A DNA stretch of 64,000 nt. It comes from Pseudomonas sp. LP_7_YM (lineage in GTDB: Bacteria > Pseudomonadota > Gammaproteobacteria > Pseudomonadales > Pseudomonadaceae). The notes beneath the pieces were generated by a model, which saw only the letters and a list, made by a program, of their open reading frames with translations, did no database searches and was not told where the DNA came from. Shown here one piece after another: positions 3,124 through 19,293 of the stretch (positions are counted from its first letter, which is position 1; every line of letters begins with the position of its first letter). Where the stretch lies: positions 62,001-126,000 of the forward strand of contig NZ_SOCT01000004.1 in NCBI RefSeq assembly GCF_004364435.1. The letters run 5' to 3'. A program made the position numbers and the translations under genes.

Positions 3124-3274
3124 GCTCAAACTAGGAGGTGGCACTGGCCTTTGGTTTCGGCTGTGCGCTTGTGGTTAAATACGGCGTCTTTTGTCCCGGG
3201 GGTTCCACGGGGCGCCCATCATAACAGGACGGTCCTGCGCAAGACAGCAGGCCGTTATAGGGACGCAAGCCGCC

Positions 3275-4294: not shown

Positions 4295-4322
4295 TTACAG
4301 TCACGGTCCGCGCGTCACCCAG

Positions 4323-4347
4323 AAAGAGGTCCTACGGGACCTCTTTT
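4323..4347 (+). terminator. Rho-independent terminator after bamD
   Basis: AAAGAGGTCC and its complement GGGACCTCTTT are separated by a very short loop and followed by a T run, 29 bases after the bamD stop codon. Confidence 0.85.
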
Positions 4348-4439
4348 TCATTTCCGACGTCACTGGACGGTGCGCATCACTGTGCGCCCGCCAGCGCGTT
4401 GGCTACACTGCGACATCTTCAATCACTAAGCGGGTAGAC

Positions 4440-4679
4440 ATGATTCGCCTGATAATGTGGATCGCCCTGATCGTCGCGGCGATCTGGTTTTTCAAACGCC
4501 TGACCAAAGGCCCCGCCCCCAGGTCAAAGCCCGCCACGCCCGAAATCGATGCTGCGCCGATGGTGCGCTGTGTCCAATGCGGCGTTCACCTTCCCCGTGA
4601 TCGGGCACTGAGTCAGGGTCAGCAGTGGTATTGCACTGAAGCACATCGCTTACTGGGCCCCGCAGCACGTGACCGCTGA
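4440..4679 (+). CDS. PP0621 family small membrane protein
   Basis: A 79-residue protein with one N-terminal membrane segment (about residues 3-18) and a small cytoplasmic tail holding CxxC (Cys44, Cys47) and CxxxH (Cys65, His69), a possible zinc-ribbon. It matches the uncharacterised PP0621 family that sits just before pilS in Pseudomonas. Its stop overlaps the GTG start of pilS by 11 bases, so the three genes very probably form one operon with pilS and pilR. Function is unknown; a link to PilS sensing is only suggested by position. Confidence 0.85.
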   Translation: MIRLIMWIALIVAAIWFFKRLTKGPAPRSKPATPEIDAAPMVRCVQCGVHLPRDRALSQGQQWYCTEAHRLLGPAARDR

Positions 4680-6261
4680 GACCATTTTGCTGGCGACACC
4701 CCAAGCCCAGCGCATTCTGCGGCTGTATCACCTGTATCGCCTGAGCATCGGCATTCTGCTGGTGTTGCTGATTTCCAGCAGCCTGGACGCCGAGTTGCTG
4801 GAGCTGGCGGACATCGAGCTGTTTCGCACCGGGTGCTGGTTGTATCTGGTGTTCAACATTCTGGTAGTTGTGCTGCTGGAGCGGCCGGCTCGACAAGGCC
4901 AGCTATTCACCCTGGCCATGGCCGACGCGATCATGCTCTGCGCACTGTTCTACGCGGGCGGGGGCGCACCCAGCGGGATCGGCAACCTGATCGTTGCGTC
5001 TGTAGCGATCAGCAATGTGCTGCTGCGCAAACGCATTGGTCTATTGATTGCCGCCATTTCGGCCATCGGCATCATCTACCTGACGTTCTACATCAGTTAC
5101 CACAAGCCCGCTGCCGCCAGTCATCTCGTCCAGGCCGGCTCCCTCGGCGCGTTGTGTTTCGCTGCTGCGCTGCTCGTTCAGGCACTGGCCCGACGCCTGC
5201 AGCTCAGCGAAGACATCGCTGAACAGCGCGCCGTCGATGTCGACAATCTTGAGGCGCTCAACGCGCTGATCCTGCAACGCATGCGCACCGCTATCCTGGT
5301 ACTGGACGCCGACCATAAGGTGCTGCTTGCCAACCAAAGCGCGCTGACGCTGCTGGGACAGGAGCGGTTGCTCGGAGAGGCCATTGACCTTTATTCGCCG
5401 CAACTGGTGGAGCGGCTGAGGCAATGGCAACTCAACTCCTCGATGACGCCGCGCAGCATGACCGCCTCCGCCATCGGCCCTGTGCTGCGTCCGGGCTTCA
5501 TTGCGCTGAACCGCGGTCTGGACCGGCACACACTGGTGTTCCTCGATGACCTTTCACAGATATCCCAGCAGGCCCAGCAACTCAAACTCGCCGCGCTGGG
5601 CCGGCTGACGGCAGGCATCGCCCACGAGATCCGCAACCCGTTGGGCGCAATCAGCCATGCCGCTCAGTTGCTGCAGGAGTCCGAGGCGTTAGCTGGGCCG
5701 GATCGACGCCTCAGTCAAATCATTCAGGATCAATCGCGACGGATGAATCTGGTCATCGAGAACGTCTTACAGCTGTCCCGTCGACGTCAGACCGAACCTC
5801 GTCTGCTCGACCTCAGGCAATGGCTCAAACTCTTCGTCAGTGACCTGCGCAGCCGGCTCTGCGCCGGGCAGTTCGTACACCTGAACATAGGCTTCGGCAC
5901 GCTGACCACCCGCATGGATGCCGAACAACTGCAGCAAGTCATGACCAACCTGGTGCAAAACGGCCTACGCTACAGTGGTCAAGCAAACGAGCAGGCTCAG
6001 GTGTGGCTGCGGCTGTTCCATGATGCCCAGAGCGATCTGCCCAGCCTTGAAGTGCTGGACGACGGTCCGGGCGTTGCCAGTGAGCATCTGACTAAAATAT
6101 TCGAGCCTTTTTTCACGACTGAAAGCAAAGGTACCGGCCTGGGTCTGTATCTTTCGCGTGAACTGTGCGAAAGCAATCAGGCGAACCTGAATTACATACC
6201 ACGTGAAGAGGGTGGCAGCTGCATGCGCATCACCTTCGCCCATCCGTTCAAATTGAGCTGA
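4669..6261 (+). CDS. pilS: Sensor histidine kinase PilS of the type IV pilus two-component system
   Basis: PilS senses pilin levels in the inner membrane and phosphorylates PilR. About six membrane segments fill residues 25-180, a PAS domain follows (about 190-290), then the HisKA domain with AGIAHEIRNPLG carrying His319, the same number as the phosphorylated His known in P. aeruginosa PilS. The ATPase domain shows NLVQNGLRYS (N box), DDGPGV (G1) and GTGLGL (G2). The start is GTG at 4669, inside the end of the PP0621 gene; the pilR ATG follows two bases after the stop. Confidence 0.95.
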   Translation: MTAETILLATPQAQRILRLYHLYRLSIGILLVLLISSSLDAELLELADIELFRTGCWLYLVFNILVVVLLERPARQGQLFTLAMADAIMLCALFYAGGGAPSGIGNLIVASVAISNVLLRKRIGLLIAAISAIGIIYLTFYISYHKPAAASHLVQAGSLGALCFAAALLVQALARRLQLSEDIAEQRAVDVDNLEALNALILQRMRTAILVLDADHKVLLANQSALTLLGQERLLGEAIDLYSPQLVERLRQWQLNSSMTPRSMTASAIGPVLRPGFIALNRGLDRHTLVFLDDLSQISQQAQQLKLAALGRLTAGIAHEIRNPLGAISHAAQLLQESEALAGPDRRLSQIIQDQSRRMNLVIENVLQLSRRRQTEPRLLDLRQWLKLFVSDLRSRLCAGQFVHLNIGFGTLTTRMDAEQLQQVMTNLVQNGLRYSGQANEQAQVWLRLFHDAQSDLPSLEVLDDGPGVASEHLTKIFEPFFTTESKGTGLGLYLSRELCESNQANLNYIPREEGGSCMRITFAHPFKLS

Positions 6262-6263
6262 AC

Positions 6264-7604
6264 ATGAGCCAACGGCAAAAGATCCTGATCGTCGACGATG
6301 AGCCAGACATCCGTGAGCTGCTGGAAATCACGCTGGGGCGGATGAAAGTGGACACGCGCAGCGCACGCAACGTCAAGGAAGCTCAGGACTGGCTGGCGCG
6401 CGAGCCTTTCGACCTGTGCCTGACCGACATGCGCCTGCCCGACGGCAATGGCCTGGAGCTGGTGCAGCACATCCAGAAGCGTCACAGTCAGGTACCCGTG
6501 GCGATGATCACCGCCTACGGCAGCCTCGACACGGCCATCCATGCCCTGAAAGCCGGCGCCTTCGACTTCCTCACCAAACCTGTGGACCTGGGCCGGCTGC
6601 GTGAGCTGGTGAGCAGCGCTTTGCGCCTGCACGCGTCACCGCCCACCGAGAACTCCATCGATCATCGGCTGCTGGGCAACTCCCCGCCGATGCAGGCCCT
6701 GCGCAAACAGATTGGCAAGCTGGCGCGAAGCCAGGCGCCGATTTACATCAGCGGTGAGTCCGGCAGTGGCAAGGAGCTGGTGGCCCGATTGATCCACGAA
6801 CAAGGCCCGCGTATCGACAAGCCGTTCGTGCCGGTCAACTGTGGCGCGATTCCCTCTGAGCTGATGGAGAGCGAATTTTTCGGCCATCGCAAAGGCAGCT
6901 TCACGGGCGCCCATGAAGACAAGCCGGGGCTGTTTCAGGCCGCCAATGGCGGCACACTGTTTCTCGACGAAGTGGCCGACCTGCCGCTGGCCATGCAAGT
7001 GAAGCTGCTGCGCGCCATACAGGAGAAATCCGTGCGCGCCGTGGGTGGCCAGCAAGAACAGGTCGTGGACGTGCGTATCCTCTGCGCCACCCACAAGGAC
7101 CTCAGCGTCGAAGTCGCTGCGCAACGCTTCCGTCAGGACCTCTACTATCGTCTCAACGTCATCGAACTGCGTGTCCCGCCACTGCGCGAACGCCGGGAGG
7201 ACATCGAAGAGATTGCCAACAGCGTCCTGCATCGCCTGGCAAAAAACGCGGGCCAGCCTCCTGCTCGGCTCTCGCCCCAAGCTTGGGCAGCGTTAAAAGG
7301 CTACCGCTTCCCCGGCAACGTGCGAGAGCTGGAAAACATGCTCGAACGCGCCTACACCCTGTGTGAGAACGAGCAGATCAACGCCGATGACCTGCGCCTT
7401 GCCGAGCCGACAAGCACCCCGGACCTGGACGGCCCGAGTCTGGCGGGCATCGACAATCTGGAAAATTATCTGGAAAGCATCGAACGCAAGCTGATCCTCC
7501 AGGCTCTGGAAGAAACCCGCTGGAACCGCACGGCAGCGGCCCAACGGCTGAACCTGACGTTCCGCTCGATGCGTTATCGATTGAAGAAACTGGGATTGGA
7601 GTAG
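6264..7604 (+). CDS. pilR: Sigma-54-dependent response regulator PilR
   Basis: PilR activates transcription of the major pilin gene with RpoN. Domains in order: receiver (residues 1-118; phospho-acceptor Asp55 in TDMRLPDG), AAA+ sigma-54 interaction domain (about 135-365; Walker A GESGSGKE, the sigma-54 contact loop GSFTGA, Walker B GGTLFLDEV) and a Fis-type helix-turn-helix at the C-terminus (about 400-446). It is 446 residues, the family length, and is translationally coupled to pilS. The major pilin gene it would control is not in this window. Confidence 0.96.
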   Translation: MSQRQKILIVDDEPDIRELLEITLGRMKVDTRSARNVKEAQDWLAREPFDLCLTDMRLPDGNGLELVQHIQKRHSQVPVAMITAYGSLDTAIHALKAGAFDFLTKPVDLGRLRELVSSALRLHASPPTENSIDHRLLGNSPPMQALRKQIGKLARSQAPIYISGESGSGKELVARLIHEQGPRIDKPFVPVNCGAIPSELMESEFFGHRKGSFTGAHEDKPGLFQAANGGTLFLDEVADLPLAMQVKLLRAIQEKSVRAVGGQQEQVVDVRILCATHKDLSVEVAAQRFRQDLYYRLNVIELRVPPLRERREDIEEIANSVLHRLAKNAGQPPARLSPQAWAALKGYRFPGNVRELENMLERAYTLCENEQINADDLRLAEPTSTPDLDGPSLAGIDNLENYLESIERKLILQALEETRWNRTAAAQRLNLTFRSMRYRLKKLGLE

Positions 7605-7698
7605 CGCTGAAAGCCCCGCAAGGGGAAGCACTGCCGGACCGTACACCGTTCGCCAGGGAGCCGCTCCTGGAGTAGAGCATAAGGATGCGCAAGATCCC

Positions 7699-7729
7699 GC
7701 GACGCCACAGGACTTGTGGGAGACGTCGC
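7699..7729. repeat. REP-like inverted repeat between convergent pilR and thiO
   Basis: GCGACGCCAC and GTGG..CGTCGC form a hairpin in the 198-base gap between the convergent ends of pilR and thiO. The flanking bases (TGTGGGAG) look like Pseudomonas REP elements. It could also help terminate transcription from both sides; no T run follows. Confidence 0.4.
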
Positions 7730-7802
7730 AGGTTACGACGGCAGCGAATGCAGTACGTCAGCGGCAGAGCCGTTTTTTCTGACACTCTGCACCTGCCAGC
7801 GC

Positions 7803-8909
7803 CTACGATTCTCCGACCCTGGCATCAGGGGCATACGGCGCAGGATCAATAATCGGCGCATCCCCCATCAGCAGATCCGCCAGAAGCTGACACGAGGCCG
7901 GGGCCAGCACCAGCCCGTTGCGGAAATGTCCGCAGTTCAACCACAACCCTTCATGCTTGAGCACCGGCCCAATGAACGGAATCCCGTCGGGCGAGCCCGG
8001 ACGCAGTCCGGCCCAATGCCCCACCACTTCTGCACCTGCCAGCGCCGGAATCAATTCCTCCGCCGAGGCTTTCAGGCTTTCCAGCGCGTTCTCGGTCGGG
8101 GTCTTGTCGTAGCCCTCGTATTCAAGGGTGCTGCCCACCAGGATATGACCATCCCGGCGCGGAATCGCGTAGCGGCCTTTGGCGAGGATCATGCTCGGCA
8201 GAAAATCCGCCGCGCATTTGTACAGAATCATCTGCCCCTTTACAGGCTCCACCGGCAGTTCGATGCCCAGGTGGCGAAGCAGATCACCACTCCAGGCCCC
8301 GGCTGCGAGCACCACGCAGTCACCCAGAATGTCGCCTTCGGCCGTGGTCACACCGATCACCCGCTCCTGGTCACGCACGAAGTCGCTGACTTCACATTGC
8401 TCATGAATCGTGACATTCGGCATGGCCTGCAACGCTGCCTTGAGCGACTTGACCAGCCGCGGGTTACGCACGTTGGCGATATCGGCCATGTGCACGGCGC
8501 GCGTATACCCCCCGCCCATCACCGGGACGGCCTGATGCACCGCCGAAATGTCCACTGAACGCAAGGGGCGATTGAGCCGCGCAGCCCATTCCAGCGCTTG
8601 TACCTCGTCGTCCAGATCCAGCCAATACAAGCCGGTCTTATGGACTTGTGGATCTACTCCCGTGGCATCGAGCAGGCGCTCCGCCAACTGTGGATAAAAA
8701 TCCTGCGACCAATGCGCGAGTGCCGTCACAGCAGGGCTATAGCGCCACGGATAAAGCGGCGAAACAATGCCCCCGCCCGCCCACGAGGACTCCTGCCCGA
8801 CGCCTGAGCGATCGAGCAACACCACGCTCTGGACTCTTGCGGCGAGATTGAAAGCAGTCAGCAGCCCGATGACGCCACCGCCGACGATTACCACGTGTTG
8901 CCTGGACAT
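7803..8909 (-). CDS. thiO: Glycine oxidase ThiO (FAD-dependent)
   Basis: ThiO oxidises glycine to dehydroglycine for the thiazole ring of thiamine. The 368-residue protein opens with the dinucleotide-binding motif VVIGGGVIG (written here VVIVGGGVIG, residues about 6-15) and has the DAO-family features LAAGAWSG and GLRPGSPDG near the C-terminus. The frame stays open upstream to 9566, but the start at 8909 puts the FAD motif at the usual distance from the N-terminus. It lies between pilR and the minor pilins, the same place as in other pseudomonads, and is divergent from the pilin operon. Confidence 0.93.
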   Translation of the reverse strand: MSRQHVVIVGGGVIGLLTAFNLAARVQSVVLLDRSGVGQESSWAGGGIVSPLYPWRYSPAVTALAHWSQDFYPQLAERLLDATGVDPQVHKTGLYWLDLDDEVQALEWAARLNRPLRSVDISAVHQAVPVMGGGYTRAVHMADIANVRNPRLVKSLKAALQAMPNVTIHEQCEVSDFVRDQERVIGVTTAEGDILGDCVVLAAGAWSGDLLRHLGIELPVEPVKGQMILYKCAADFLPSMILAKGRYAIPRRDGHILVGSTLEYEGYDKTPTENALESLKASAEELIPALAGAEVVGHWAGLRPGSPDGIPFIGPVLKHEGLWLNCGHFRNGLVLAPASCQLLADLLMGDAPIIDPAPYAPDARVGES

Positions 8910-9098
8910 GCAGATCCCGATTACCAATAGAAAAATCAACGCCGGCTCAAGCTCAACAAGGTGCAGACAAACCGACTTCATACCGTCGTAAACCTCGCCA
9001 TGCCACTGGTCCGGCAAATATCCCCGAACATCCACTACATGGCGACTTCGAACCTGAGTAGTATCACCATATTTCAAACGAAAAACGGAATTTCCTCG

Positions 9099-9632
9099 AT
9101 GGATTTCAGCTCTGGCGTTACGCGCCCGAATTCGCGTCGCAGCTGGCAGCGTGCTCTTGGGGGCAAGAGCGGCGGTTTTACCTTGATCGAACTGATCGTG
9201 GTGGTGGTGATCGTGGGGATTTTTGCGGCGATTGCAATGCCCAGCTTTTCCAGCATGCTGCACCGCAGCAGCGTTCGCGCCGCAGCCGATGAGTTCTACG
9301 ACTTGCTGCAATACGCGCGGGCCGAGGCAGTGACCCGTGGCACCATCGTCAACATCAATGCCGCTGTGAACACCACCCAAATCGTCGTGGCACTCGGCGC
9401 AGGCGGCGGCGGAACCGTGCTGAGACAAGTTGGCAGTAACGGGCTGCAAACCGGCGTGACCATCAACGCCAATGTGAACAGCGTCGACTTCTCGCCCACC
9501 GGCACTGCCTCGGTAGGCGCCTGTTTCCAGGTTCTCTATCCAACCGATACCAGCATCGCTTCGCAATACCTTTCATTGCTCAGCAGTGGACGGGTGACCG
9601 CGCCCGCCACGACCAAGCCGAGCGGTTGCTGA
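9099..9632 (+). CDS. fimU: GspH/FimT-family minor pilin (FimU position)
   Basis: First gene of the forward minor-pilin operon. The prepilin peptidase site is clear: a leader of about 26 residues ending in Gly, then FTLIELIVVV with Glu at +5 and a long hydrophobic helix. The rest is the globular GspH/FimT domain of 177 residues in all. The position directly before pilV matches fimU of P. aeruginosa; a FimT name is equally possible. The start at 9099 was chosen; an upstream Met at 9039 would give an even longer leader. The gene ends by sharing one base with the pilV start. Role: priming of type IVa pilus assembly at the inner membrane. Confidence 0.85.
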   Translation: MDFSSGVTRPNSRRSWQRALGGKSGGFTLIELIVVVVIVGIFAAIAMPSFSSMLHRSSVRAAADEFYDLLQYARAEAVTRGTIVNINAAVNTTQIVVALGAGGGGTVLRQVGSNGLQTGVTINANVNSVDFSPTGTASVGACFQVLYPTDTSIASQYLSLLSSGRVTAPATTKPSGC

Positions 9633-10201
9633 TGAAGACTTTCGCCCCCCGCCAGAATGCTGGTTTCAGCATGATTGAAGTGTTGGTCAGCCTGCTCATC
9701 ACCGTGATCGGCGTCCTGGGTATGGTGGCCCTGCAAAGCAAGGCGATTCCATACACCCAGGATTCGGTGCAGCGCAATACCGCGATCATGCTGGCCGATG
9801 ATCTGGTGGAGATCATTCGCACAGCCGGCAGTTGCACCACGGCCAATGGTTGCGTGACAGCCCCAAGCGCGAGCTTCCCAACCAAACCCGCTAGCTGCAA
9901 CCCCACTCCGGCCACGTTGTCGACCCAGATTGGCTGCTGGGCAGACCAGGCGAGTCGCGCGTTGCCCGGTGCAGATGCTCTCCTCAACAAATCGTTTTAC
10001 GTCTGCCGAAGCTTGGTGCCGGGCGACGTCACCGCCTCAGCGTGCGGCACATCCAGCACATCGAATACCGAAATAGAGATACAGGTGGCATGGACGGTGA
10101 AATCGGCCAGCGAATGCCTGGACAAAGGTCAGGCATCCAATCCGACAGCGAGCTCCACCACCTGCACTTATCGCATTAGAACCAGGGTAAGCGCGCAATG
10201 A
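9632..10201 (+). CDS. pilV: Type IV pilus minor pilin PilV
   Basis: PilV helps initiate pilus assembly and connects other minor pilins with PilY1. The leader of 11 residues ends in Gly before FSMIEVLVSLL (Glu at +5), followed by a hydrophobic helix to about residue 38. The globular part has several cysteines, likely in disulfides. ATG at 9632 overlaps the preceding stop by one base, and the stop overlaps the pilW ATG (ATGA), so translation is coupled. Confidence 0.9.
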   Translation: MKTFAPRQNAGFSMIEVLVSLLITVIGVLGMVALQSKAIPYTQDSVQRNTAIMLADDLVEIIRTAGSCTTANGCVTAPSASFPTKPASCNPTPATLSTQIGCWADQASRALPGADALLNKSFYVCRSLVPGDVTASACGTSSTSNTEIEIQVAWTVKSASECLDKGQASNPTASSTTCTYRIRTRVSAQ

Positions 10202-10986
10202 AACGAATTGCCAAGATGACTACAGTTTGGAGCTCACAACGAGGGCTGTCGCTGATCGAACTGATGGTAGCGATGGTGATCGGCCTGGTGCTGATCCTTG
10301 GCGTCACGCAAATTCTTATCAACAATCAGAAGAGCTATCTGTTTCAGCAAGGGCAGGTGGGCAATCAGGAAAACAGCCGGTTTACTCTGGCGGTCTTGAG
10401 TCAGGAGCTTTCCAAGGCGGGGTACCGCAGCAAACCGACAACCGCACTGGCACTCGGTGCAGGACAGGGATGCACTTTTCCTGCCGGGACCTCTGTCATC
10501 GCCGTATCAGCCACATCGTTGTGCATTCGCTATCAGGCCGCGAACAAGGGTGATGTGAACTGCCAAGGTGGGGCATTGGCAAGTGGCGATCAGAACGCCA
10601 TCCTCAATCCTTATGCCCAAAGCAACCCGATCGTCGTTGAAAAAATCTGGTTTGATTCAACCAGCAGTTCGATCAGTTGCACGACCGGCACAACGACTCA
10701 GCAACTGGTCACCGGAGTCGCCGCATTGAGTTTCGACTTCGGCTCCGGCTCGGCCGACCTGAAGACAGTGACAAGCTTCAGCACAAACCCCACAGGTGCC
10801 ATTGGCGCGGTGCGCTACACGGTGCTAATGAAGAGTCCCGGCACGGCATCGATAAGGGACTCATCGACAAAGGCATCACCTGCCCTGACCGAGTGGAATA
10901 ACCGGTTCGGTACTAGCCTGTCCGACAGTAATCAGATTTATCAGATTGTCCAGGGTACGACCATGATCAGGAACCAGATGCAATGA
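10198..10986 (+). CDS. pilW: Type IV pilus minor pilin PilW
   Basis: 262-residue PilW-family prepilin. The 16-residue leader ends in Gly before LSLIELMVAM (Glu +5), with the hydrophobic helix to about residue 45, then a conserved segment of the family (SRFTLAVLSQELSKAGY). Its larger size compared with the other minor pilins is typical of PilW. The overlaps with pilV and pilX (ATGA at each junction) place it inside the operon. Confidence 0.9.
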   Translation: MKRIAKMTTVWSSQRGLSLIELMVAMVIGLVLILGVTQILINNQKSYLFQQGQVGNQENSRFTLAVLSQELSKAGYRSKPTTALALGAGQGCTFPAGTSVIAVSATSLCIRYQAANKGDVNCQGGALASGDQNAILNPYAQSNPIVVEKIWFDSTSSSISCTTGTTTQQLVTGVAALSFDFGSGSADLKTVTSFSTNPTGAIGAVRYTVLMKSPGTASIRDSSTKASPALTEWNNRFGTSLSDSNQIYQIVQGTTMIRNQMQ

Positions 10987-11552
10987 GCCTTTTCGTGGCG
11001 AGCCAATCCTTTGCAGCGCCCCGCCATCAGACGGGCGCAACGCTGCTGGTGGCAATCATGATGCTGTTGATCATCACCCTGCTGGCGCTGTCCAGCCTGC
11101 GTGGCGTATCACTGGAGTCGCGCATCACCGGTAATCTGAAGCAGCAGAAGACCCTATTCAATGCGGCGGAAGGTGCGTTGCGCATTGGTGAAAGCAGCAT
11201 CAGCCTGACCAAAGCACCTTCGCTGGACAATGCATGCAATGCCGCATCCTGCTTACGCTGGAAGCTGTCAGACCTGACGGCCACCACCGGCAAAGACACA
11301 GTGACGCGCTTCGGGACGGCAGACAACGGCACCAACACTATGAAGCTGACGACCAACTACGACGTCAAGGTTCAGTGGTACGTCGTGGACTTGGGAAATC
11401 TGGTGGGTTCGAGCCAAGGCAACTGTGCGGTCATGGGCTGCGGCCCACATCACTACGAAATAAACGCCTGTGCATCGGCGACCAGCTACTGCACCGAGAG
11501 CACCGACGCTCAACGCGTCATCCTGCGCACTGTCATTGCACGGTATTACTAA
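10983..11552 (+). CDS. pilX: Type IV pilus minor pilin PilX
   Basis: PilX-family prepilin of 189 residues. Leader of 18 residues to Gly, then ATLLVAIMMLL; the +5 residue is Val instead of Glu, as in the PilX family, which is considered the tip-proximal subunit like GspK. The conserved SSLRGVSLESRITGN block follows the helix. The stop TAA shares one base with the pilY1 ATG. Confidence 0.9.
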   Translation: MSLFVASQSFAAPRHQTGATLLVAIMMLLIITLLALSSLRGVSLESRITGNLKQQKTLFNAAEGALRIGESSISLTKAPSLDNACNAASCLRWKLSDLTATTGKDTVTRFGTADNGTNTMKLTTNYDVKVQWYVVDLGNLVGSSQGNCAVMGCGPHHYEINACASATSYCTESTDAQRVILRTVIARYY

Positions 11553-14500
11553 TGAACATTCGCCAGTACTGGACCGGCATCAACGCGTCCAATGCCGTCA
11601 AACTGGTTGCGGCCTTGCTAACCACATCAATCCTTGCGGTGCCATCTGCCCAGGCAGACGTCAGCCAGGTGCCTGCGCAGGTACCGTTGTTCGTCAACGA
11701 TTCGGTGCCCCCGCTGAACATGCTGGTCGTAGGCCGCGACCACAAGCTGTTCTTCCCGGCCTACAACGATGCGTCGGACCTTGATAACGACGGGTCGATC
11801 GAGATTCGCTACAAGCCTTCGATCACCTACCTGGGCTATTTCGACTCCAACACTTGCTACAGCTACACGGGCTCCTACTTCACCCCGGCGGCTGTAGCAG
11901 ACAGCAAGAAATGCACAAGCAAAGCTGGCCGCTGGAGTGGTGACTACCTCAACTACCTAACCACCTCTCGCGCCGATGCACTGCGCAAAGTGCTATATGG
12001 CGGCTATCGCAGCACAGACACCGCGACCCAGACCATTTTGGAACGGGCCTACATCCCGACTGACGCCCACACCTGGGGCAAGGAATACAACGGTTCAGCC
12101 GCCACTGCCGATGGTTATAACCTGTCGGACTACACACCGTTTGCCAACCCCACCGGCAGCAACCGGGCGCTCTTCGCCAACAACACCCAGACTACAGCGG
12201 GCGGGCCGTTACTGCGGGTTGTGCCCAGCATTGCCAATCTGCGCATCTATGGCTGGGTCTCTCGGGAGGTCACCCAAGGCGGTGCCAAGGCCAACGATAC
12301 CTCCTTCAAGGAGGTCGACCTCACCAGCCAGATTCAGGACTTTATCGTTCGCGTGGAGGTCTGCAAGAAAAGCACGGTCATCCCGCTGGAGAGCAACTGC
12401 AAGACCTACCCTAACGGCAATAACAAACCTACCGGCATCCTTCACGACTACGGTGAAGGCAATCAGATGTACTTCGGTCTCATGACGGGTACGTATGCCA
12501 ATAACCTCCAGGGTGGCGCGATTCGCAAGGCGATCAGCAGCTTCGCCAACGAGGTCGACACCTCGACCGGTATCTTCGGCACCGCGAAAACCAGCGGCAA
12601 CACCACCACCTACACCAAAGGCGCGCTGATCAACACGCTCGACTCGTTGAAGATCGCCAAGACAGCCTGTAGCACCCAAGGCAACTCGATCGATAACGGG
12701 ACTTGTCAGGACTGGGGCAACCCGCTGGCCGAAATGATGTTTGAGACGATGCGTTATTTCAGCGGGGTGGCCGACACCAAGCAAACCCAGGTGGCTCCTA
12801 CCACGGCTTACCTTTCAGGCACCGGTGACAGCAACCTCGGGCTTACCGGCCTGACCAGCTGGAGCAACCCATATTCGGCCAGCCCAAATCCGGAGGGCAC
12901 CACGCCAACCTTTCCAAGCTGCTCGAAGCCGTTCGAAACACTTTTCAGCGATATCAACCCGACCTACGATTCAGATCTGCCCGGTAGTGCCTACACCATT
13001 GTCAAAGGGCCAACCACCACTACTGCGTTGAACGACTTTGACGTGGCCACATTCGGCCAGAAGATTTGGACCAATGATGTTGGCTCCGGAGCCAAAAATA
13101 TTAATATCGGGCAAACCCCAACCAGTGCTGGCAGGAGCACCGCCCCGATTGTCGCCTCGACCTATGATGACCTGGCCCCGACCGCCAAGAGCGCCTCAAG
13201 CTTCGGCAACATTCGCGGCCTTCCAGAAGAACCGGCCAAGCAAGGCACATTCAACGCAGGCGCCGTGGCTTACTTCGGTAACACCTACCCTATTACCTCA
13301 CTGGGCAGTCAGAAGGTTCAGACGTTTTCCATCGCGTTGTCATCGACGTTGCCGCGCATCCAGATGCCCGTCGGCACCGGCACCATCACGCTGCTGCCCT
13401 ACGGCAAAGTGGTCAATACCAACGGGGTGACCGAACAGATCACTGGCTTTTACATCGATTCGCTGTACAACATGCCCGGCCAGCAGGCCAACACCAACAT
13501 CAACGGTGGCCGGGCCCAGGCAGTGTTCCGCGTGGTATTCGACGACAGTGGCCAAGGCGGCGACTATGACATGGACGCCATCGTGCTCTATACCGTGTCA
13601 GTGGTTAAAACCGGAACGGTAGATACCCTGGATGTCCGGCTGGAAACGGTTTACGCCCAAGCGGGCTATGAATCGCACATGGGCTACACCATTTCCGGTA
13701 CGACGGCAGATGGCATTTACCTTGAAGTCACCGGTGGCGGCAACGGCAACCTGCACTATGCGCTTGATACGCCTGGTACCCAGATTCCCAACTCCTGTTC
13801 GGCAGGCTGCAGCGGCTCCGGCACGCTGCTTCCAGGTATGAAATCGGGCAGCACCGTGGTAAACGGCGCCACCTTCAAAACTCGTAATTTTACGCCGTCC
13901 TCTTCACGCTCGGTCACCAACCTGATGGACCCCTTGTGGTACGCCGCGAAATGGGGCGGGTTCGGCGACTCGAGCAACACGACCAGCAGCCTGCCGATAG
14001 CCGGGCAGTGGGACTCAAACGTGTCAGGTACGCCGGATAACTACTTTCTGGTGAGCAGCGCGTCTACGCTCAAGGCACAACTGCAGACTGCATTCAGCCA
14101 GATCCTGCAAAAGAACACTTCGGTGGCACCGCCTGCCGCCAGCCCGCCGCCACTGTCCTCAAGCACTGCAACGACGACCTACACGGACAGCTTCAACGTC
14201 GCGCTATGGAGTGGTGACCTGACCAAGGCCACCGAAAGCTACGACAGCACGACGGGCGTGAAGAGTGCCACGGTCAACTGGAGCGCAGCGGCCGCCATGC
14301 CTGCGGCGGGCAGCCGAAACATCAAGATCGCCAACGCTGCCGGCACCGCGCTGGTGGACTTCACTTACGCCAACCTCGCCGGGCGCAGCTACCCGGCAGG
14401 GTCTGCCTGGCAGACCACGGCCAGCTCCACGCCGTCCACCGGGCTGACCGCAGACCAGGTCGCGTTCGTGCGCGGAGACCGCTCGCTTGAGGGAAGCACC

Positions 14501-16084
14501 TTTCGCAGGCGACTTTCGACACTGGGCGATATCGTGAACTCACAACCTGTGGTCGTGGATTCTGCGACCTTCGTCACCTCGATGGCTGACACACTGTCAG
14601 GCGCGACAAAATATGCAGCGTTCCAGACCACGGCCAGTAACCGCCGCGCTCAAGTCTACGTCGGCGCCAACGATGGCATGCTTCACGCGTTTGACGTAGC
14701 CACGGGCGTCGAGAAGTTCGCTTTCATACCCACGGCGCTGGTTTCAAAGCTAAACGTGCTGACCTCCAAGACTTACAACAGCGACTCGACCCTGCACCGC
14801 TTCTTCGTCGATGGCACGCCGGTGGTCTCCGACGTGTACTTCGGCTCGGCATGGCATACGGTGTTGATCGGGACACTGGGAGGGGGCGGCAGCGAGGTCT
14901 TCGCACTGGATGTCACCGACCCCAACAATATTTCGCTGCTCTGGGAATTCACGTCAGTCACCGATCCCGACCTGGGCAACACGTTCTCAACGCCCTACAT
15001 CTCCAAACTGCACTCAGGTGATTGGGGCGTTATTTTCGGCAACGGCTACAACAGTGGCAACGGCGGTACTGCCAGCCTGTTCATTCTCAACGTGGCCACG
15101 GGAGCGGTAATCAAGAAGCTCAACACCAGTACCACCGCCAGTTTGGCTGCAGGCGCGAACGGACTTTCGACACCGGTGATCCTTGATGCCGACTCCGACG
15201 GTATCGCTGACTATGTGTATGCCGGCGACTTGCAGGGCAACCTCTGGCGTTTCGACTTGATCAACCCAGGCTCATTGACGGCCACCGCAACTGCTGCCAA
15301 CTATGCAGTGTCCTTCGCCGGCAAGCCGCTTTATACCGCCGCAGCGCCGACAGCTGGGGCTGCTGCCCAGTCGATTACCACGCCCCCGGTTGTTTTTCCA
15401 CACCCCACGGGGACTGGCACCTTGGTGATTTTCGGCACGGGTCGATACTTTACCTCTGCTGATAAATCAAGCACCGACCTTCAATCCCTTTATGGCATCT
15501 GGGACCCACTAACCCAGGGGCAAACAGCTTCTACACCTGCTGGAACCACCCAGCTGACCTCCCTGGGCCGCGCCAATCTCCAGGCCCAGACGCTGTCTAC
15601 AGTCGCCGGTACGCTTGGCACCAGTACGGGGCTTAGGACCGTCACCACCAATGCGGTTGACTGGGCGAGCAAATATGGCTGGTATCTGGACCTGAAAACC
15701 AGCGCCACGCTGACCGGTGAACGCATGGTCGATTTGCTGGACATCCAGGGCAGTGTGTTATTCGTGGCAACGCGTACGCCGATTACCGGTGTTTGCGAAG
15801 CCGGGATCCAGGGCAAGCGGCTGGGGCTTGATCCCAACACTGGCGGTGCTACGACCTTCTCGATCTTCGACTTCAGCCGCAACGGAGTCATTGGCAGCGA
15901 AGATACCTTGTCGGGTGCCATTGTCAGCGGCTTCGACTCTGCAGCAGGTGGATTTGCCGTGGTCGCAGGTAATGGGCCATCTGGACTCTCAACCATGTAC
16001 AACAGCGACGGCACCAACAGCAGCATGAACGTATTTACCGGTTTCCAGTACAACGGCCGCCAGACCTGGCGAGTGATTCCATGA
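11552..16084 (+). CDS. pilY1: PilY1-type pilus tip adhesin/assembly protein
   Basis: PilY1 sits at the pilus tip, supports assembly and retraction balance, and acts in adhesion. The 1510-residue protein has an N-terminal signal peptide (cleavage near PSAQA, residue 32). The C-terminal beta-propeller (about residues 980-1480) contains the calcium loop DADSDGIAD at 1212-1220, known in PilY1/PilC proteins. At the N-terminus there is no DxSGSM metal-site motif of a von Willebrand A domain; instead a block around residues 65-100 with DASDLDNDG (73-81) resembles Neisseria PilC-type proteins. The frame is open upstream to 11234 but the ATG at 11552 is right behind pilX. No pilY2 gene follows; the stop overlaps the pilE start. 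Confidence 0.92.
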   Translation: MNIRQYWTGINASNAVKLVAALLTTSILAVPSAQADVSQVPAQVPLFVNDSVPPLNMLVVGRDHKLFFPAYNDASDLDNDGSIEIRYKPSITYLGYFDSNTCYSYTGSYFTPAAVADSKKCTSKAGRWSGDYLNYLTTSRADALRKVLYGGYRSTDTATQTILERAYIPTDAHTWGKEYNGSAATADGYNLSDYTPFANPTGSNRALFANNTQTTAGGPLLRVVPSIANLRIYGWVSREVTQGGAKANDTSFKEVDLTSQIQDFIVRVEVCKKSTVIPLESNCKTYPNGNNKPTGILHDYGEGNQMYFGLMTGTYANNLQGGAIRKAISSFANEVDTSTGIFGTAKTSGNTTTYTKGALINTLDSLKIAKTACSTQGNSIDNGTCQDWGNPLAEMMFETMRYFSGVADTKQTQVAPTTAYLSGTGDSNLGLTGLTSWSNPYSASPNPEGTTPTFPSCSKPFETLFSDINPTYDSDLPGSAYTIVKGPTTTTALNDFDVATFGQKIWTNDVGSGAKNINIGQTPTSAGRSTAPIVASTYDDLAPTAKSASSFGNIRGLPEEPAKQGTFNAGAVAYFGNTYPITSLGSQKVQTFSIALSSTLPRIQMPVGTGTITLLPYGKVVNTNGVTEQITGFYIDSLYNMPGQQANTNINGGRAQAVFRVVFDDSGQGGDYDMDAIVLYTVSVVKTGTVDTLDVRLETVYAQAGYESHMGYTISGTTADGIYLEVTGGGNGNLHYALDTPGTQIPNSCSAGCSGSGTLLPGMKSGSTVVNGATFKTRNFTPSSSRSVTNLMDPLWYAAKWGGFGDSSNTTSSLPIAGQWDSNVSGTPDNYFLVSSASTLKAQLQTAFSQILQKNTSVAPPAASPPPLSSSTATTTYTDSFNVALWSGDLTKATESYDSTTGVKSATVNWSAAAAMPAAGSRNIKIANAAGTALVDFTYANLAGRSYPAGSAWQTTASSTPSTGLTADQVAFVRGDRSLEGSTFRRRLSTLGDIVNSQPVVVDSATFVTSMADTLSGATKYAAFQTTASNRRAQVYVGANDGMLHAFDVATGVEKFAFIPTALVSKLNVLTSKTYNSDSTLHRFFVDGTPVVSDVYFGSAWHTVLIGTLGGGGSEVFALDVTDPNNISLLWEFTSVTDPDLGNTFSTPYISKLHSGDWGVIFGNGYNSGNGGTASLFILNVATGAVIKKLNTSTTASLAAGANGLSTPVILDADSDGIADYVYAGDLQGNLWRFDLINPGSLTATATAANYAVSFAGKPLYTAAAPTAGAAAQSITTPPVVFPHPTGTGTLVIFGTGRYFTSADKSSTDLQSLYGIWDPLTQGQTASTPAGTTQLTSLGRANLQAQTLSTVAGTLGTSTGLRTVTTNAVDWASKYGWYLDLKTSATLTGERMVDLLDIQGSVLFVATRTPITGVCEAGIQGKRLGLDPNTGGATTFSIFDFSRNGVIGSEDTLSGAIVSGFDSAAGGFAVVAGNGPSGLSTMYNSDGTNSSMNVFTGFQYNGRQTWRVIP

Positions 16085-16530
16085 CCTTGAGAGATCGGCA
16101 GAAGATGCGATATTTAAAAACAGACGAGCACGGCTTCACCCTGATAGAGCTGATGATCACCGTAGCGATCGTCGCGATTCTTGCAGCCATTGCTTATCCG
16201 TCCTACACCAAGTACGTGCAGCGTGGGTATCGCTCAGAAGGGATCGCGATGCTCAGTGATGCGGTGGCACGAATGGAGCGCTATTACGCGCAGAACAATA
16301 CGTATGTGGGTGCTACGCTGTCGACACTCGGCCTTAGCACTGACAGCAAAGTCACAACGCTTAGCTCTGCTAACAGCAAATACACGTTGAGTTTTTCAGG
16401 GACACCCGGCGCCACCACCTACACGCTACAAGTCGTTCCGCAAGACAGTCAGGCCAAAGACACCTGCGGCACTATGACGATCAATCAGGCCGGCGCTAAA
16501 ACGCCTACCACAGCGGAATGCTGGAGGTAA
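16081..16530 (+). CDS. pilE: Type IV minor pilin PilE
   Basis: Last gene of the forward minor-pilin operon, 149 residues. The 18-residue leader ends with Gly before FTLIELMITVAIVAILAAIAYP (classic pilin N-terminus, Glu +5), then YTKYVQRGYRSEG. A C-terminal Cys pair (CGTM...ECWR) would form the D-loop disulfide. An in-frame Met at residue 9 could give a shorter leader. It ends seven bases from the end of the convergent second PilE-like gene, with no obvious terminator between them. Confidence 0.9.
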   Translation: MTLRDRQKMRYLKTDEHGFTLIELMITVAIVAILAAIAYPSYTKYVQRGYRSEGIAMLSDAVARMERYYAQNNTYVGATLSTLGLSTDSKVTTLSSANSKYTLSFSGTPGATTYTLQVVPQDSQAKDTCGTMTINQAGAKTPTTAECWR

Positions 16531-16537
16531 GGATCAA

Positions 16538-16954
16538 TCAGCGCCCCCAACACCCCTGCACACTGGCATCGCCCGACATCCCTTGGTTGTCGCGCCTGCC
16601 AGTGTTCTCCAGCACGAACGCGCCGCACTTGTCCCCGCTCATCAACGTGCCGCCAATCGGCATTGCTTTAAGCACGAACATCTGCTCGGAACGCTTGGCC
16701 TCAATTACATAAAACCCGTTGCCCTCGGACACTGCGTGCTCGCGAGCAGGAGGCCCTGTCACGTCCGAATACTGCCCGGCACGGGAATGGAACCGCTCAA
16801 GCTTGTGCGCTTCTTCGACCAGGACGGCCGCGATTTGCGAGCGCCGGATCTTGCGGGTGTGTTCGGTGTAGGTCGGGTAAGCGACAGCGGCGAGGATCGC
16901 GATGATGGCGACCGCGATCAGCAATTCAATCAGCGTGAAACCTCGTTCTGTCAT
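16538..16954 (-). CDS. Second PilE-like type IV pilin
   Basis: 138-residue prepilin, last gene of the minus-strand pilin set. A five-residue leader (MTERG) precedes FTLIELLIAVAIIAILAAVAYP, almost the same helix as the forward PilE, while the rest differs clearly. It has the pilin-type C-terminal Cys pair (CGAF...GCWG). The start at 16954 lies 12 bases after the PilX-like stop. The frame is open far upstream but only this start gives a prepilin leader. It is probably a paralogue of pilE serving the second minor-pilin set. Confidence 0.87.
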   Translation of the reverse strand: MTERGFTLIELLIAVAIIAILAAVAYPTYTEHTRKIRRSQIAAVLVEEAHKLERFHSRAGQYSDVTGPPAREHAVSEGNGFYVIEAKRSEQMFVLKAMPIGGTLMSGDKCGAFVLENTGRRDNQGMSGDASVQGCWGR

Positions 16955-16965
16955 CCGCCCTGCCC

Positions 16966-17454
16966 TCACCGCCGTTGTCGCCACAAGATTCGGCGCTCGC
17001 CGGTGTGAATGCTCTCGAGCACGGTGCGCGACGTACCCTGAACACCGATGGCGGTCACCCGATACAGCTTTTGTGGCTGGGGTTGGTCCGGTGCGGCGGC
17101 AGGGTCTTCGGTTTCGCCAAGGTACTGAATACCGAAGAACCCACCGTTGCTCGCCAGCCAGTTCACCCCGGATGCCCGCCCCCTGCCGCCAGCGGTGAGG
17201 CTCAGGGCTTCTGGCGGCGGAAGGCACGTGACGGGCGTCGAGCACCGGGAATGTGAAAAGCCTGGCATGAGCACTTCGGTTTCTGCGGTTCGCAGCACGG
17301 TCTCGGCCAGTTGAAAGGAGGCATCGCGCAGTACCAGGCCGCCTGCCGCTTTCTCCTGAAGCGTCGCGTTCTGCATGGACGAGGTCGCCAGCAGCGTCAG
17401 AAGCATGAGAAACACCAGGCTGACAATCAGTACCGCTCCACGCTGGGTCTTCAT
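16966..17454 (-). CDS. Second PilX-like minor pilin
   Basis: 162-residue PilX-family prepilin. The six-residue leader MKTQRG is followed by AVLIVSLVFLMLLTLLATSSMQN; like other PilX proteins it lacks Glu at +5. The segment TLQEKAAGG corresponds to the conserved post-helix block of the family. A good GAGGAG ribosome site precedes the ATG at 17454, ten bases after the PilW-like gene. Confidence 0.86.
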   Translation of the reverse strand: MKTQRGAVLIVSLVFLMLLTLLATSSMQNATLQEKAAGGLVLRDASFQLAETVLRTAETEVLMPGFSHSRCSTPVTCLPPPEALSLTAGGRGRASGVNWLASNGGFFGIQYLGETEDPAAAPDQPQPQKLYRVTAIGVQGTSRTVLESIHTGERRILWRQRR

Positions 17455-17464
17455 TCGCCACTCC

Positions 17465-18169
17465 TCAACCTACCCGATTACGCAGGCTGCCCACGACGCT
17501 GAAGGACCGCTCCCGCGTACGGTCTGCGGGATCGAACAGCGTCAATGTCACACGTAAGCTTCGAATCAGTTGTGGCTCCGGTTGGGCGGTATAGCGCGCA
17601 ATACTCGGGGCTTGGATTGAGTCAGCCACGCCAAACAGCACACCGAATGCGCGCACATTGCTGAGCAACGGCTGGCCGTCGAGGGTCAGCTCGCCTCGCT
17701 GTTCGTTGAATCGATAGACCTGCCGCTGAACAGCAATCGCAAATTCGCCAGGCCCCAATGACGGCGCGCGCCCGCGAGACCACGCCGTGGCCGATTTCGC
17801 GCAATCGGTATGGATGACCCAGTTGTGCCAGGACTTGTCCGTGCCAACGGCAGCGGTCGTCAGGATCAGGCTTTTCTGACGGGCATCCCACTGCACCGGC
17901 GCTTGGGATGCGGAGGAAAAACCTGCGTCAAGACTGACGTCACGCACGCTGCCCAGGCAACCGAACATACCCACCAGACGCACTTCCTGAATCATCTTGG
18001 TCAGTACAAACCGCGCATCTTCCTGCAGGCTGGCGGATGACGTCTGACTCAGCCAGGTGCTTTTGGCGGTGATGAAAATCTGCGTCAGCGCCAGGGACAT
18101 CACCAGACCGAGAACCAGCGCCAGTAAGGTCTCAACCAGGGCGAAGCCTCTGTTGTGCCGAGTTGTCAT
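17465..18169 (-). CDS. Second PilW-like minor pilin
   Basis: 234-residue PilW-family prepilin: eight-residue leader to Gly, FALVETLLALVLGLVMSLAL with Glu at +5, then the PilW-like stretch ASLQEDARFVLTKMIQEVR that matches the corresponding part of the forward PilW in pattern. It is shorter than the forward PilW (262). The ATG overlaps the stop of the PilV-like gene (ATGA), showing an operon. Confidence 0.86.
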   Translation of the reverse strand: MTTRHNRGFALVETLLALVLGLVMSLALTQIFITAKSTWLSQTSSASLQEDARFVLTKMIQEVRLVGMFGCLGSVRDVSLDAGFSSASQAPVQWDARQKSLILTTAAVGTDKSWHNWVIHTDCAKSATAWSRGRAPSLGPGEFAIAVQRQVYRFNEQRGELTLDGQPLLSNVRAFGVLFGVADSIQAPSIARYTAQPEPQLIRSLRVTLTLFDPADRTRERSFSVVGSLRNRVG

Positions 18170-18621
18170 GGGTGGGCACCTCGCTCGGGCGTGGTCACAC
18201 TGGTCAAGGTCATGGTCTGTCTCGCAGCGCCCTGGCCTTGTGCCCGCGAGTCATTCCAGTCCAGCGTGACCGTCACCCTGGCCCCACTTATCGCGATGGA
18301 CGCCTTGGCATCGTCGCCCACCGTGCGCCGCAGTTGATCGGCAAAATCGAAAAGGTCTTGATCGCGGGGAATCTCAGGGTTGCCGGAGGTGGGGGCATGA
18401 CTCAGCTCAACCAGGGCGTAGTTCGCTTGGGGGTTGGCGCGGATCCGTTCGAGCAGGTCATGAACGATGAAACTGACCTGAGTGCTGCGCATCGCGCTGT
18501 CGGTGTGCTTCAGCGCATTGAGCTGCAACGTCGCCACGCCCAGCACGCCGACGGATAACACCAGCAGCGCCACCAGCACCTCGATCAGTGTCACCCCTGC
18601 CTGTGCTGATCCCGTCGCCAT
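18166..18621 (-). CDS. Second PilV-like minor pilin
   Basis: First gene of the minus-strand pilin set. Start at 18621 was chosen because GAGGTG lies five bases upstream and it gives a nine-residue leader MATGSAQAG before VTLIEVLVALLVLSVGVLG (Glu +5). The protein is 151 residues; the frame is open to 18654. The post-helix region LERIRANPQANYALVEL is like PilV/GspI-type pilins. It is divergent from the GspH/FimT gene at 18790, sharing a 168-base promoter region. Confidence 0.85.
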   Translation of the reverse strand: MATGSAQAGVTLIEVLVALLVLSVGVLGVATLQLNALKHTDSAMRSTQVSFIVHDLLERIRANPQANYALVELSHAPTSGNPEIPRDQDLFDFADQLRRTVGDDAKASIAISGARVTVTLDWNDSRAQGQGAARQTMTLTSVTTPERGAHP

Positions 18622-18789
18622 CGAACACCTCTGCCAAGTCATGTGCAGAGACATTGAAGCCGATACTTCGTGGCCTGCCTGACAGGTGTGTAACGGCTGC
18701 TTGCGGACACATCGACTGACAATCCTCGGCCTTGTCAGTGGCCTTGGATGAGCGTTTGCTTGAGCAGGGTGTGGTGTGGGAGAGACAAG

Positions 18790-19293
18790 GTGAAGCAGAC
18801 AGGGCTAACACTGCTGGAGCTGCTGATCGTGCTGGTATTGATCGCCGTTACTGCCACGCTGGCCGCCCCCGCCTTTGGGACGCTGATCGAATCGCAACGG
18901 CGTCAGGACACCGCCCAACAACTGGTCAGCGGTTTGCGGCTGGCCCGCGTCGAGGCGATTCTACGCAGCCAACCCGTCATCGTGCAGGCGCAGGAAGGCG
19001 ACTGGAGTCAGGGCTGGCACGTATTCGTCGATATCAATCGCAATCAGTTCCGGGACGAAGATGAACCGATACTGGCCGAACGCAGTGGCCACCAGAACGT
19101 GAGGGTGGTCGGCAATAGACGGGTGGCGATGCGCATTGGCTTCGATAACACCGGCAGGCTGCTCAACAATGCCAATGGCACACTGGCGGTCTGCCTGAAA
19201 GACTCACCCGTCAGTCGCTACCAGATTGCGATTGCCGTAACGGGTCGGGTGACGCTTCGCAGCAGCGGTTTCACAACCGAGCCTTGTTCATGA
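18790..19293 (+). CDS. GspH/FimT-family pseudopilin
   Basis: 167-residue prepilin with a five-residue leader MKQTG and the helix LTLLELLIVLVLIAVTATLAAP (Glu +5; Leu replaces Phe at +1). The body carries the GspH/FimT hallmark LVSGLRLARVEAILRSQPV. The GTG at 18790 is preferred to an ATG at 18748 because a GGGAGAG ribosome site lies seven bases before it and the leader is then of normal size. It may complete the second minor-pilin set as its FimU/GspH member, being divergent from the PilV-like gene. It is convergent with ispH, 20 bases apart. Confidence 0.85.
   Translation: MKQTGLTLLELLIVLVLIAVTATLAAPAFGTLIESQRRQDTAQQLVSGLRLARVEAILRSQPVIVQAQEGDWSQGWHVFVDINRNQFRDEDEPILAERSGHQNVRVVGNRRVAMRIGFDNTGRLLNNANGTLAVCLKDSPVSRYQIAIAVTGRVTLRSSGFTTEPCS

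Follow-up and report, generated by a model that had tools for sequence, protein, structure and literature searches.

The window analysed here is a 64,000-nucleotide stretch of the Pseudomonas sp. LP_7_YM genome (5.44 Mb in 44 contigs), spanning positions 62001 to 126000 of contig NZ_SOCT01000004.1 (G000:C4 in our numbering), and its element of interest is a locus carrying two sets of minor pilin genes. The gene order is pilS-pilR, thiO on the reverse strand, a first set on the forward strand (set 1, 9099-16530), a second set on the reverse strand (set 2, 16538-18654), a forward fimT and a reverse ispH; the names pilS, pilR, thiO and ispH are presumed from sequence features and place. An earlier reading, made by a model from the letters alone (the sequence-only reading), had proposed two convergent sets with pilE-type genes ending seven bases apart. 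This arrangement is confirmed. Each of the ten genes forms an open frame at the position given, with matches to pilin families, and the two pilE frames end at 16530 (+) and 16538 (-), leaving a 7-base gap. The listed pilV2 frame extends to 18654, which corrects that reading, and fimT, which diverges from pilV2 and adjoins set 2, had not been counted. The order described as mirror-like is mirrored on the map, but V-W-X-E is identical in both sets when read 5' to 3'.

Set 1 comprises fimU, pilV, pilW, pilX, pilY1 and pilE on one strand, the gene complement of a PilY1-tipped priming complex. Set 2 lacks pilY1, as had been claimed, the sole PF05567 match of the genome being pilY1 of set 1; with FimT counted in the place of FimU beside PilV, PilW and PilX, it presents the four core minor pilins. 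TIGR02523 scored above cut-off for PilV and PF14341 for PilX of both sets, both PilE proteins matched ComP_DUS and N_methyl, and fimU is of the GspH type. Family support is weaker for PilW (PF16074 hits W1 below cut-off, and W2 has an N_methyl match alone, at cut-off), and the PilW names in both sets rest mainly on place, order and alignment. A PilC/PilY1-type match was observed in set 1 only, with PF05567 above its cut-off and the NCBIfam model below, and a search of PDB with the PilV1 sequence returned no match. Class III leaders had been proposed for all four set 2 genes. N_methyl matches at or above cut-off for PilE2, PilW2, PilV2 and FimT, and a PilX_N match for PilX2, support prepilin leaders, and three of the four set 2 proteins have Glu at +5, but PilX2 (G/AVLIV) lacks it, like the PilX proteins aligned with it.

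Table 1. Features of the two minor pilin sets and of the adjoining fimT, in window positions.
Feature	Position	Strand	Evidence
fimU (set 1), GspH-type minor pilin	9099..9632	+	PF12019 37.7 bits, N_methyl; weak match to P. aeruginosa FimU 4ipu, E 0.0049
pilV (set 1)	9626..10201, ATG at 9632	+	TIGR02523 96.5 bits, cut-off 52.2
pilW (set 1)	10198..10986	+	N_methyl; PF16074 below cut-off; groups with P. aeruginosa-type sets
pilX (set 1)	10983..11552	+	PF14341; without WRQ tail, ends ...RTVIARYY
pilY1 (set 1), tip adhesin	11549..16084, ATG at 11552	+	PDB 3hx6 429 bits; PF05567 288.5 bits; ends ...GRQTWRVIP
pilE (set 1)	16081..16530	+	PF16732; PilE 4noa 61.5 bits
pilE2 (set 2)	16538..16954	-	PF16732, N_methyl; stop codon is the edge of the exchanged module
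pilX2 (set 2)	16966..17454	-	PF14341; C-terminal tail ...ERRILWRQRR; extra strand at end of model
Nine final codons plus stop of pilX2 (RRILWRQRR), putative in-cis donor strand	16966..16995	-	Motif as at the PilY1 C-terminus of inverted sets
pilW2 (set 2)	17465..18169	-	N_methyl at cut-off; tree
pilV2 (set 2)	18166..18654	-	TIGR02523 81.7 bits
Divergent upstream region common to set 2 and fimT	18655..18747		Inverted repeat TGACAATC-N7-TTGTCA
fimT, GspH-type minor pilin	18748..19293	+	PF12019 67.5 bits; C-tail GRVTLRS, two Cys; tail pattern in 15/15 clade loci

The region beside ispH was read in 140 of the 148 other genomes of the genus, the eight absent from the survey being G008, G118, G042, G123, G069, G054, G014 and G013 (G numbers denote genomes and L numbers loci). 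Of the 140 regions, 65 hold one inverted set that includes a PilY1 match (layout E Y1 X W V U < > fimT), among them five mini-PilY1 loci of the kind described below. A further 54 carry an inverted set without a PilY1 match, 14 one P. aeruginosa-type set in forward orientation, two (L014 and L036) convergent double sets, and two (L136 and L137) no set at the ispH site. The other three present two or more W matches on one strand, and correspond to a true tandem double set (L096), an unrelated double (L139) and a broken single set (L089). In L089 (G034) pilY1 and pilW of the single full set are in several pieces, and in L139 (G082, reverse-oriented, 2700-16700), from a deep-branching Pseudomonas, a normal set precedes one that is strongly divergent (PilY1-like 119 bits, PilX 35 bits). 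In position and orientation, set 2 thus follows the common pattern of the genus, and the double set is rare.

A scan with the PilW2 alignment, in which the best 80 of 147 relatives were retained, identified 13 relatives at 62-78% identity, the remaining 67 not exceeding 49%. The 13, which include P. bohemica, P. abietaniphila, three P. graminis and one genome labelled P. putida, define together with the window and L096 the 15 distinct loci here called the clade (L174 is L014 and L178 is L036, each counted once). Nine of the 13 are convergent, three are tandem and one (L176) is incomplete, being cut by the contig end. Because these loci were fetched through PilW2, the presence of pilW2 in them is given by construction, whereas pilE2, pilX2, pilV2 and fimT played no part in the selection. 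Three clade genomes (L014, L036 and L096) belong to the sample chosen without PilW2, and all three have set 2. The DNA identity of ispH is no sharp marker of the clade, reaching 87.4% in L036 and 87.0% in L015, which has another layout. The possibility that both sets are long conserved, with the second fixed throughout the genus, holds for one half of the arrangement: genes of the set-2 type make up the common single set, but two sets together were seen only in this clade and, in unrelated form, in L139.

Across these layouts, the C-termini of PilX and PilY1 present a reciprocal pattern. Where an inverted set has pilY1, its PilX usually terminates at ...VLESIYAKY or a similar sequence, and its PilY1 ends in ...RRIMWRQIQ or close to it. 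A W[RQ]Q end was found in 64 of 66 long PilY1 proteins of inverted sets, the exceptions being L139_b and the broken L183 (Pseudomonas sp. LS-2), where pilY1 of a tandem full set is split over two frames, which may reflect a broken gene or a sequencing error. In sets without pilY1, PilX is longer and itself ends in R-[IVMLT]-x-W-R-[QH], often followed by a few residues. Scored as W[RK][QH] in 163 parsed PilX proteins, this tail is present in all 51 single sets without pilY1 and in all 15 set 2 loci, and in only one of 91 PilY1-bearing sets, as a lone WRQ match in the forward, deep-branching L146. It is missing from the full inverted sets (59/59, a group that includes L089), the tandem full sets (4/4), set 1 (10/10), the inverted deep-branching sets (4/4) and 13 of 14 forward deep-branching sets. 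Two PilX proteins outside the parse agree with this distribution, L047 (no pilY1) having the tail and L032 (mini-PilY1) lacking it.

The PilY1 ending also persists where most of the protein is gone. Seven loci (L037, L038, L052, L069, L079, L042 and L032) encode, between pilX and pilE and in place of pilY1, a mini-PilY1 that ends in [RH]RI[ML]WRQIQ, and the PilX of the six parsed loci, like that of L032, has no tail. Some mini-PilY1 proteins appear, by eye, to start with a signal peptide. Two trees were built from concatenated PilE, PilW, PilV and PilX, the first under LG+G4 and the second a quick-search tree under a mixture model, which left out the unparsed full-set PilV of L183 and set-2 PilW of L184. 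In the LG+G4 tree L042 and L069 stand apart from L037, L038, L052 and L079; L032 is not in that tree. A fusion of the two genes was observed in L098. Relative to L104, which it matches in DNA on either side (89% and 82%), L098 has lost about 3.1 kb; almost the whole of pilY1 is missing, and pilX continues in frame into the final 13 codons of pilY1. L098 groups with the full sets L103 and L104 (support 100, LG+G4 tree), and its pilX-pilY1 fusion is therefore an independent event. On the mixture-model tree the tail originated on PilX three times; on the LG+G4 tree the set-2 and minimal clades could share one origin, so two origins are the safe minimum.

In the AlphaFold2 model of PilX2 (39-row alignment, mean predicted local distance difference test score [pLDDT] 88.4), the terminal strands encompass residues 136-145 and 149-155, the last of which is the tail and forms a fifth strand with a block pLDDT of 84-87. 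A control model of PilX from the full set of L185 (25 rows, pLDDT 79.9) ends at the fourth strand, at residues 140-150. PilX2 hence bears, in its model, an extra C-terminal strand containing the PilY1 tail motif.

The two sets of the window have distinct origins. Their proteins share 31.7% (PilE), 27.8% (PilW), 30.3% (PilV) and 24.1% (PilX) identity. In the mixture-model tree the ten set 1 rows form one group (support 99), joined with six P. aeruginosa-type sets (100), and the 15 set 2 rows form another (100) within the inverted Pseudomonas sets. The LG+G4 tree, with fewer clade rows, agrees on both placements. The PilY1 tree agrees with a P. aeruginosa-type origin of set 1, and the solved PilY1 structure 3hx6 scores 429 bits with set 1 PilY1 and 198 bits with that of L096. 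Inverted duplication of one set, suggested in the sequence-only reading by the mirror-like map, is accordingly rejected, because identity is 24-32% and the sets fall in different clades in both trees, each with its own outside relatives; we consider it extremely improbable. Within the inverted sets, set 2 lies near L027 in the mixture-model tree (support 89), and the single minimal sets are paraphyletic in the LG+G4 tree and one clade in the mixture-model tree. Depending on where set 2 joins the inverted sets, its tail may have arisen separately from that of the minimal sets. A donor of set 1 outside the genus was not found among 369 class genomes, where the best PilW1 match has 37% identity and 104.6 bits; within the genus PilW1 scores 146 and 179 bits for L142 and L145, values from different programs that are only roughly comparable. 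An origin outside Pseudomonas finds no support among these genomes.

Comparison of close relatives showed block replacement of the PilY1-bearing module adjoining set 2. On the thiO side, L185 (P. graminis DSM 11363, tandem) and L186 (WP_8, convergent) share 90% DNA identity across 1.1 kb; starting at the pilE2 stop they share 93.5% across 11.6 kb, and no DNA identity is detectable in the module between these two stretches. In L179/L177, L183/L175 and L096/L182 the boundary likewise falls no more than a few bases from the pilE2 stop. The site holds three full-module lineages (the set-1 type, the L096/L185 type and the L179/L183 type), and module labels require six changes on a tree of the ispH-side flank (about 8.8 kb of DNA). 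One change each falls to the outgroup and to the cut locus, which leaves at least four module changes among the 14 typed loci. The suggestion that one set was added from a related system thus applies to the complete set 1, of P. aeruginosa type and replaced as a block, and not to the PilY1-less set 2. Exchange within the clade is hinted at by L181 and L182, which the PilY1 tree pairs (support 97) and the flank tree does not; their set 1 modules are 88-95% identical in DNA, and either is 83-90% identical to that of L186.

In the 15 clade loci, set 2 and fimT have stayed intact and evolve under purifying selection. The set 2 frames are open in all 15, and the ratio of nonsynonymous to synonymous substitution rates (dN/dS) of pilE2, pilX2, pilW2, pilV2 and fimT is 0.055-0.21 in six genome pairs; for set 1 it is 0.07-0.22 in the five pairs with computable dS. 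Some pairs, including L175/L183, have dS above 1, and their ratios are rough. It could be argued that set 2 is a remnant of the original locus, outliving the arrival of set 1 and now decaying, given that it lacks both pilY1 and fimU, present in full inverted sets; the open frames, the low dN/dS and the conserved tail make this very unlikely.

The region shared by pilV2 and fimT contains an inverted repeat, TGACAATC-N7-TTGTCA, found with small variations, by means of a fixed pattern, in 14 of the 15 clade loci. It was not detected in inverted-set loci outside the clade (0/65, 0/54 and 0/67 in three lists, with some genomes in two of them), and the loose pattern matched two of 14 P. aeruginosa-type loci, at other places. 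Such a clade-specific element suggests own regulation of set 2 and fimT. This would suit an explanation in which set 2 determines the number of pili and not their kind, its extra minor pilins raising the minor-to-major ratio and the frequency of extension. In Vibrio cholerae, the minor-to-major pilin ratio has been described to govern competence pilus dynamics (PMC13249403). That explanation leaves the PilX tail and the lack of pilY1 and fimU unaccounted for, and we deem it rather improbable. A search for terminator-like and sigma-70-like sites gave 8 and 4 hits, against 9.0 and 4.0 in shuffled sequence, and was uninformative regarding interference between the convergent operons.

The genome presents 13 N_methyl matches, eight of them in the minor pilin locus, one beside a PilB-like ATPase gene and four on contig C9, near a T2SSE match, which presumably belong to type II secretion. 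With one PilY1 (PF05567) match and two PilT-family matches in the genome, these counts indicate that both sets presumably serve one type IVa pilus machine. Among the 149 genus genomes, 62 have no PF05567 match at E <= 1e-10 (the seven mini-PilY1 genomes included), and 148 have a PilT-family match, the only one without being G009, which suggests that PilY1-less pilus systems are viable. Two PF05567 matches occur in five of the 149 (G001, G042, G070, G115 and G120), some of them far from the ispH locus. ComEC was detected in all four clade genomes searched, indicating only that DNA uptake is possible. At the right end of the window, a gene for a CpaF/TadA-sized ATPase (62745-63590) and a short secretin just past it (C4:127164) suggest, by size and place, a Tad pilus locus.

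The explanation that we find best, and hold with slightly more conviction than doubt, is that one type IVa pilus machine is served by two tip or initiation complexes. Set 1 (FimU-PilVWX-PilY1-PilE) would provide an adhesive, PilY1-dependent tip of P. aeruginosa type, encoded on a horizontally exchanged block. Set 2 (PilVWX-PilE) would constitute a resident, PilY1-independent complex, in which FimT, encoded divergently, takes the FimU/GspH position and the C-terminal strand of PilX2 (RRILWRQ) may supply in cis the beta strand that the PilY1 C-terminus is predicted to give PilX in other sets. Having its own closing strand, PilX2 could allow set 2 to cap and start a pilus without an adhesin. Set 1 would then make sticky, twitching pili, and set 2 with FimT would most likely make, or bias the machine toward, DNA-uptake or otherwise non-adhesive pili. 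No pilY1 is known beside the V. cholerae competence minor pilin genes. The DNA-uptake role is proposed by analogy with V. cholerae competence pili, described as primed by FimT, PilW, PilX and PilV (PMC13249403). An alternate tip complex was among the roles put forward by the sequence-only reading for set 2, and the PilX tail and purifying selection support it.

Several observations weigh against this interpretation. Set 1 PilY1 ends in GRQTWRVIP, a diverged tail, and PilY1 ends vary in forward sets. Docking of the tail onto PilX is deduced from the motif and the literature, because the models are of single proteins, and a Foldseek search with the PilX2 model returned no solved structures at E <= 0.001. 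The 15 clade loci were mostly fetched through PilW2, so their having set 2 is not independent evidence of its retention across the whole clade. DNA-binding FimT proteins are reported to carry a GRxR motif in their C-terminal tail (PMC8897410); the exact motif is found in none of the 15 clade FimT, all of which have GR[VI]xLR, and their net charge is ordinary. That precise motif is likewise missing from many other FimT of the genus. The reading of clade FimT as a typical DNA binder of the GRxR kind was set aside, since the motif is missing and the charge uninformative. Furthermore, Myxococcus mutants without any PilY1 are described as non-piliated (PMC7541494).

An additional objection leads to the main rival explanation. 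In Kingella, the pilC genes are located away from the fimT-pilVWXE operon. That operon is thought to anchor the PilC adhesins, and its loss phenocopies that of PilC1/PilC2, according to PMC12607826; a set that lacks pilY1, such as set 2, might likewise rely on set 1 PilY1. Set 2 would in that case be an extra core (PilVWXE and FimT) employing set 1 PilY1 in trans, in mixed or parallel PilY1-tipped complexes. The single PilY1 match in the genome, and the presence of a PilY1-bearing module beside set 2 in all 14 loci where both sides are visible, are consistent with this scenario. PilX2, however, has a PilY1-like tail itself, like PilX of single sets without pilY1, and the PilY1 proteins beside set 2 come from three lineages, which argues against a tuned partnership with set 2. 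On balance, we regard use of PilY1 in trans as unlikely, though a serious contender.

Returning to two tip complexes on one machine, the tail data admit a broader proposition, on which our confidence is evenly poised. The last ten or so residues of PilY1 may be a portable donor strand indispensable to pilus assembly, which lineages losing PilY1 would have kept as a mini-PilY1 or as a PilX fusion. The clade of the window would keep both solutions, a resident self-capped tip (set 2 and FimT) and a horizontally swapped adhesive tip (set 1). To our knowledge, why some type IV pili need PilY1 and others seemingly do not is unsettled. The reciprocal tail in 163 PilX proteins, the deletion-made fusion and the mini-PilY1 genes offer a concrete, testable answer, and the clade offers close relatives that differ in their tip module with much the same machine, which is useful for the study of adhesion, phage receptors and DNA uptake.

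Multiple minor pilin sets and PilX-PilY1 strand contacts are already known ideas. The literature search found no paper on the two-set state of this clade, on block exchange beside a resident set or on PilX tails replacing PilY1. Its coverage did not extend to the pilin-island study in Pseudomonas by Giltner et al. (2011) or to the preprint of Ellison et al. (2026), and a prior description is possible. Beta-strand complementation between PilX and PilY1 has been presented as a predicted contact (PMC13190605). The present tail data bear on that contact; here, unlike there, the PilY1 tail motif stands at the end of PilX, in sets without pilY1.

Set 1 resembles the P. aeruginosa fimU-pilVWXY1Y2E operon in genes, order, orientation and place between thiO/pilSR and ispH. 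Forward sets with this layout were also seen in the genus survey. The C-domain of set 1 PilY1 matches 3hx6 at 429 bits and PilE matches 4noa. Unlike in P. aeruginosa, fimT lies beyond set 2 and not at the head of set 1, and a second set stands between set 1 and ispH. The V. cholerae genes VC0858-VC0861 (fimT, pilW, pilX and pilV) have the same core complement as set 2 with FimT (PMC13249403), a likeness of gene content taken from the literature; unlike them, set 2 also has pilE. Myxococcus xanthus likewise has several minor pilin clusters per machine (clusters 1-3), but each has its own PilY1, unlike set 2 (PMC7541494). Xylella fastidiosa also encodes two PilE/V/W/X sets per genome (PilE1-2, V1-2, W1-2, X1-2 and FimT1-3). 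As reported there, deletion of one set abolished twitching and gene deletions in the other had varied, mostly opposite effects, indicating that duplicated minor pilins can differ in their effect on twitching and transformation (PMC9956873). The Xylella paralogs lie in two genome regions, with three PilY1 in all (PMC9956873), whereas the sets of the window are adjacent, have one PilY1 in all, and include a PilY1-bearing set that is exchanged as a block.

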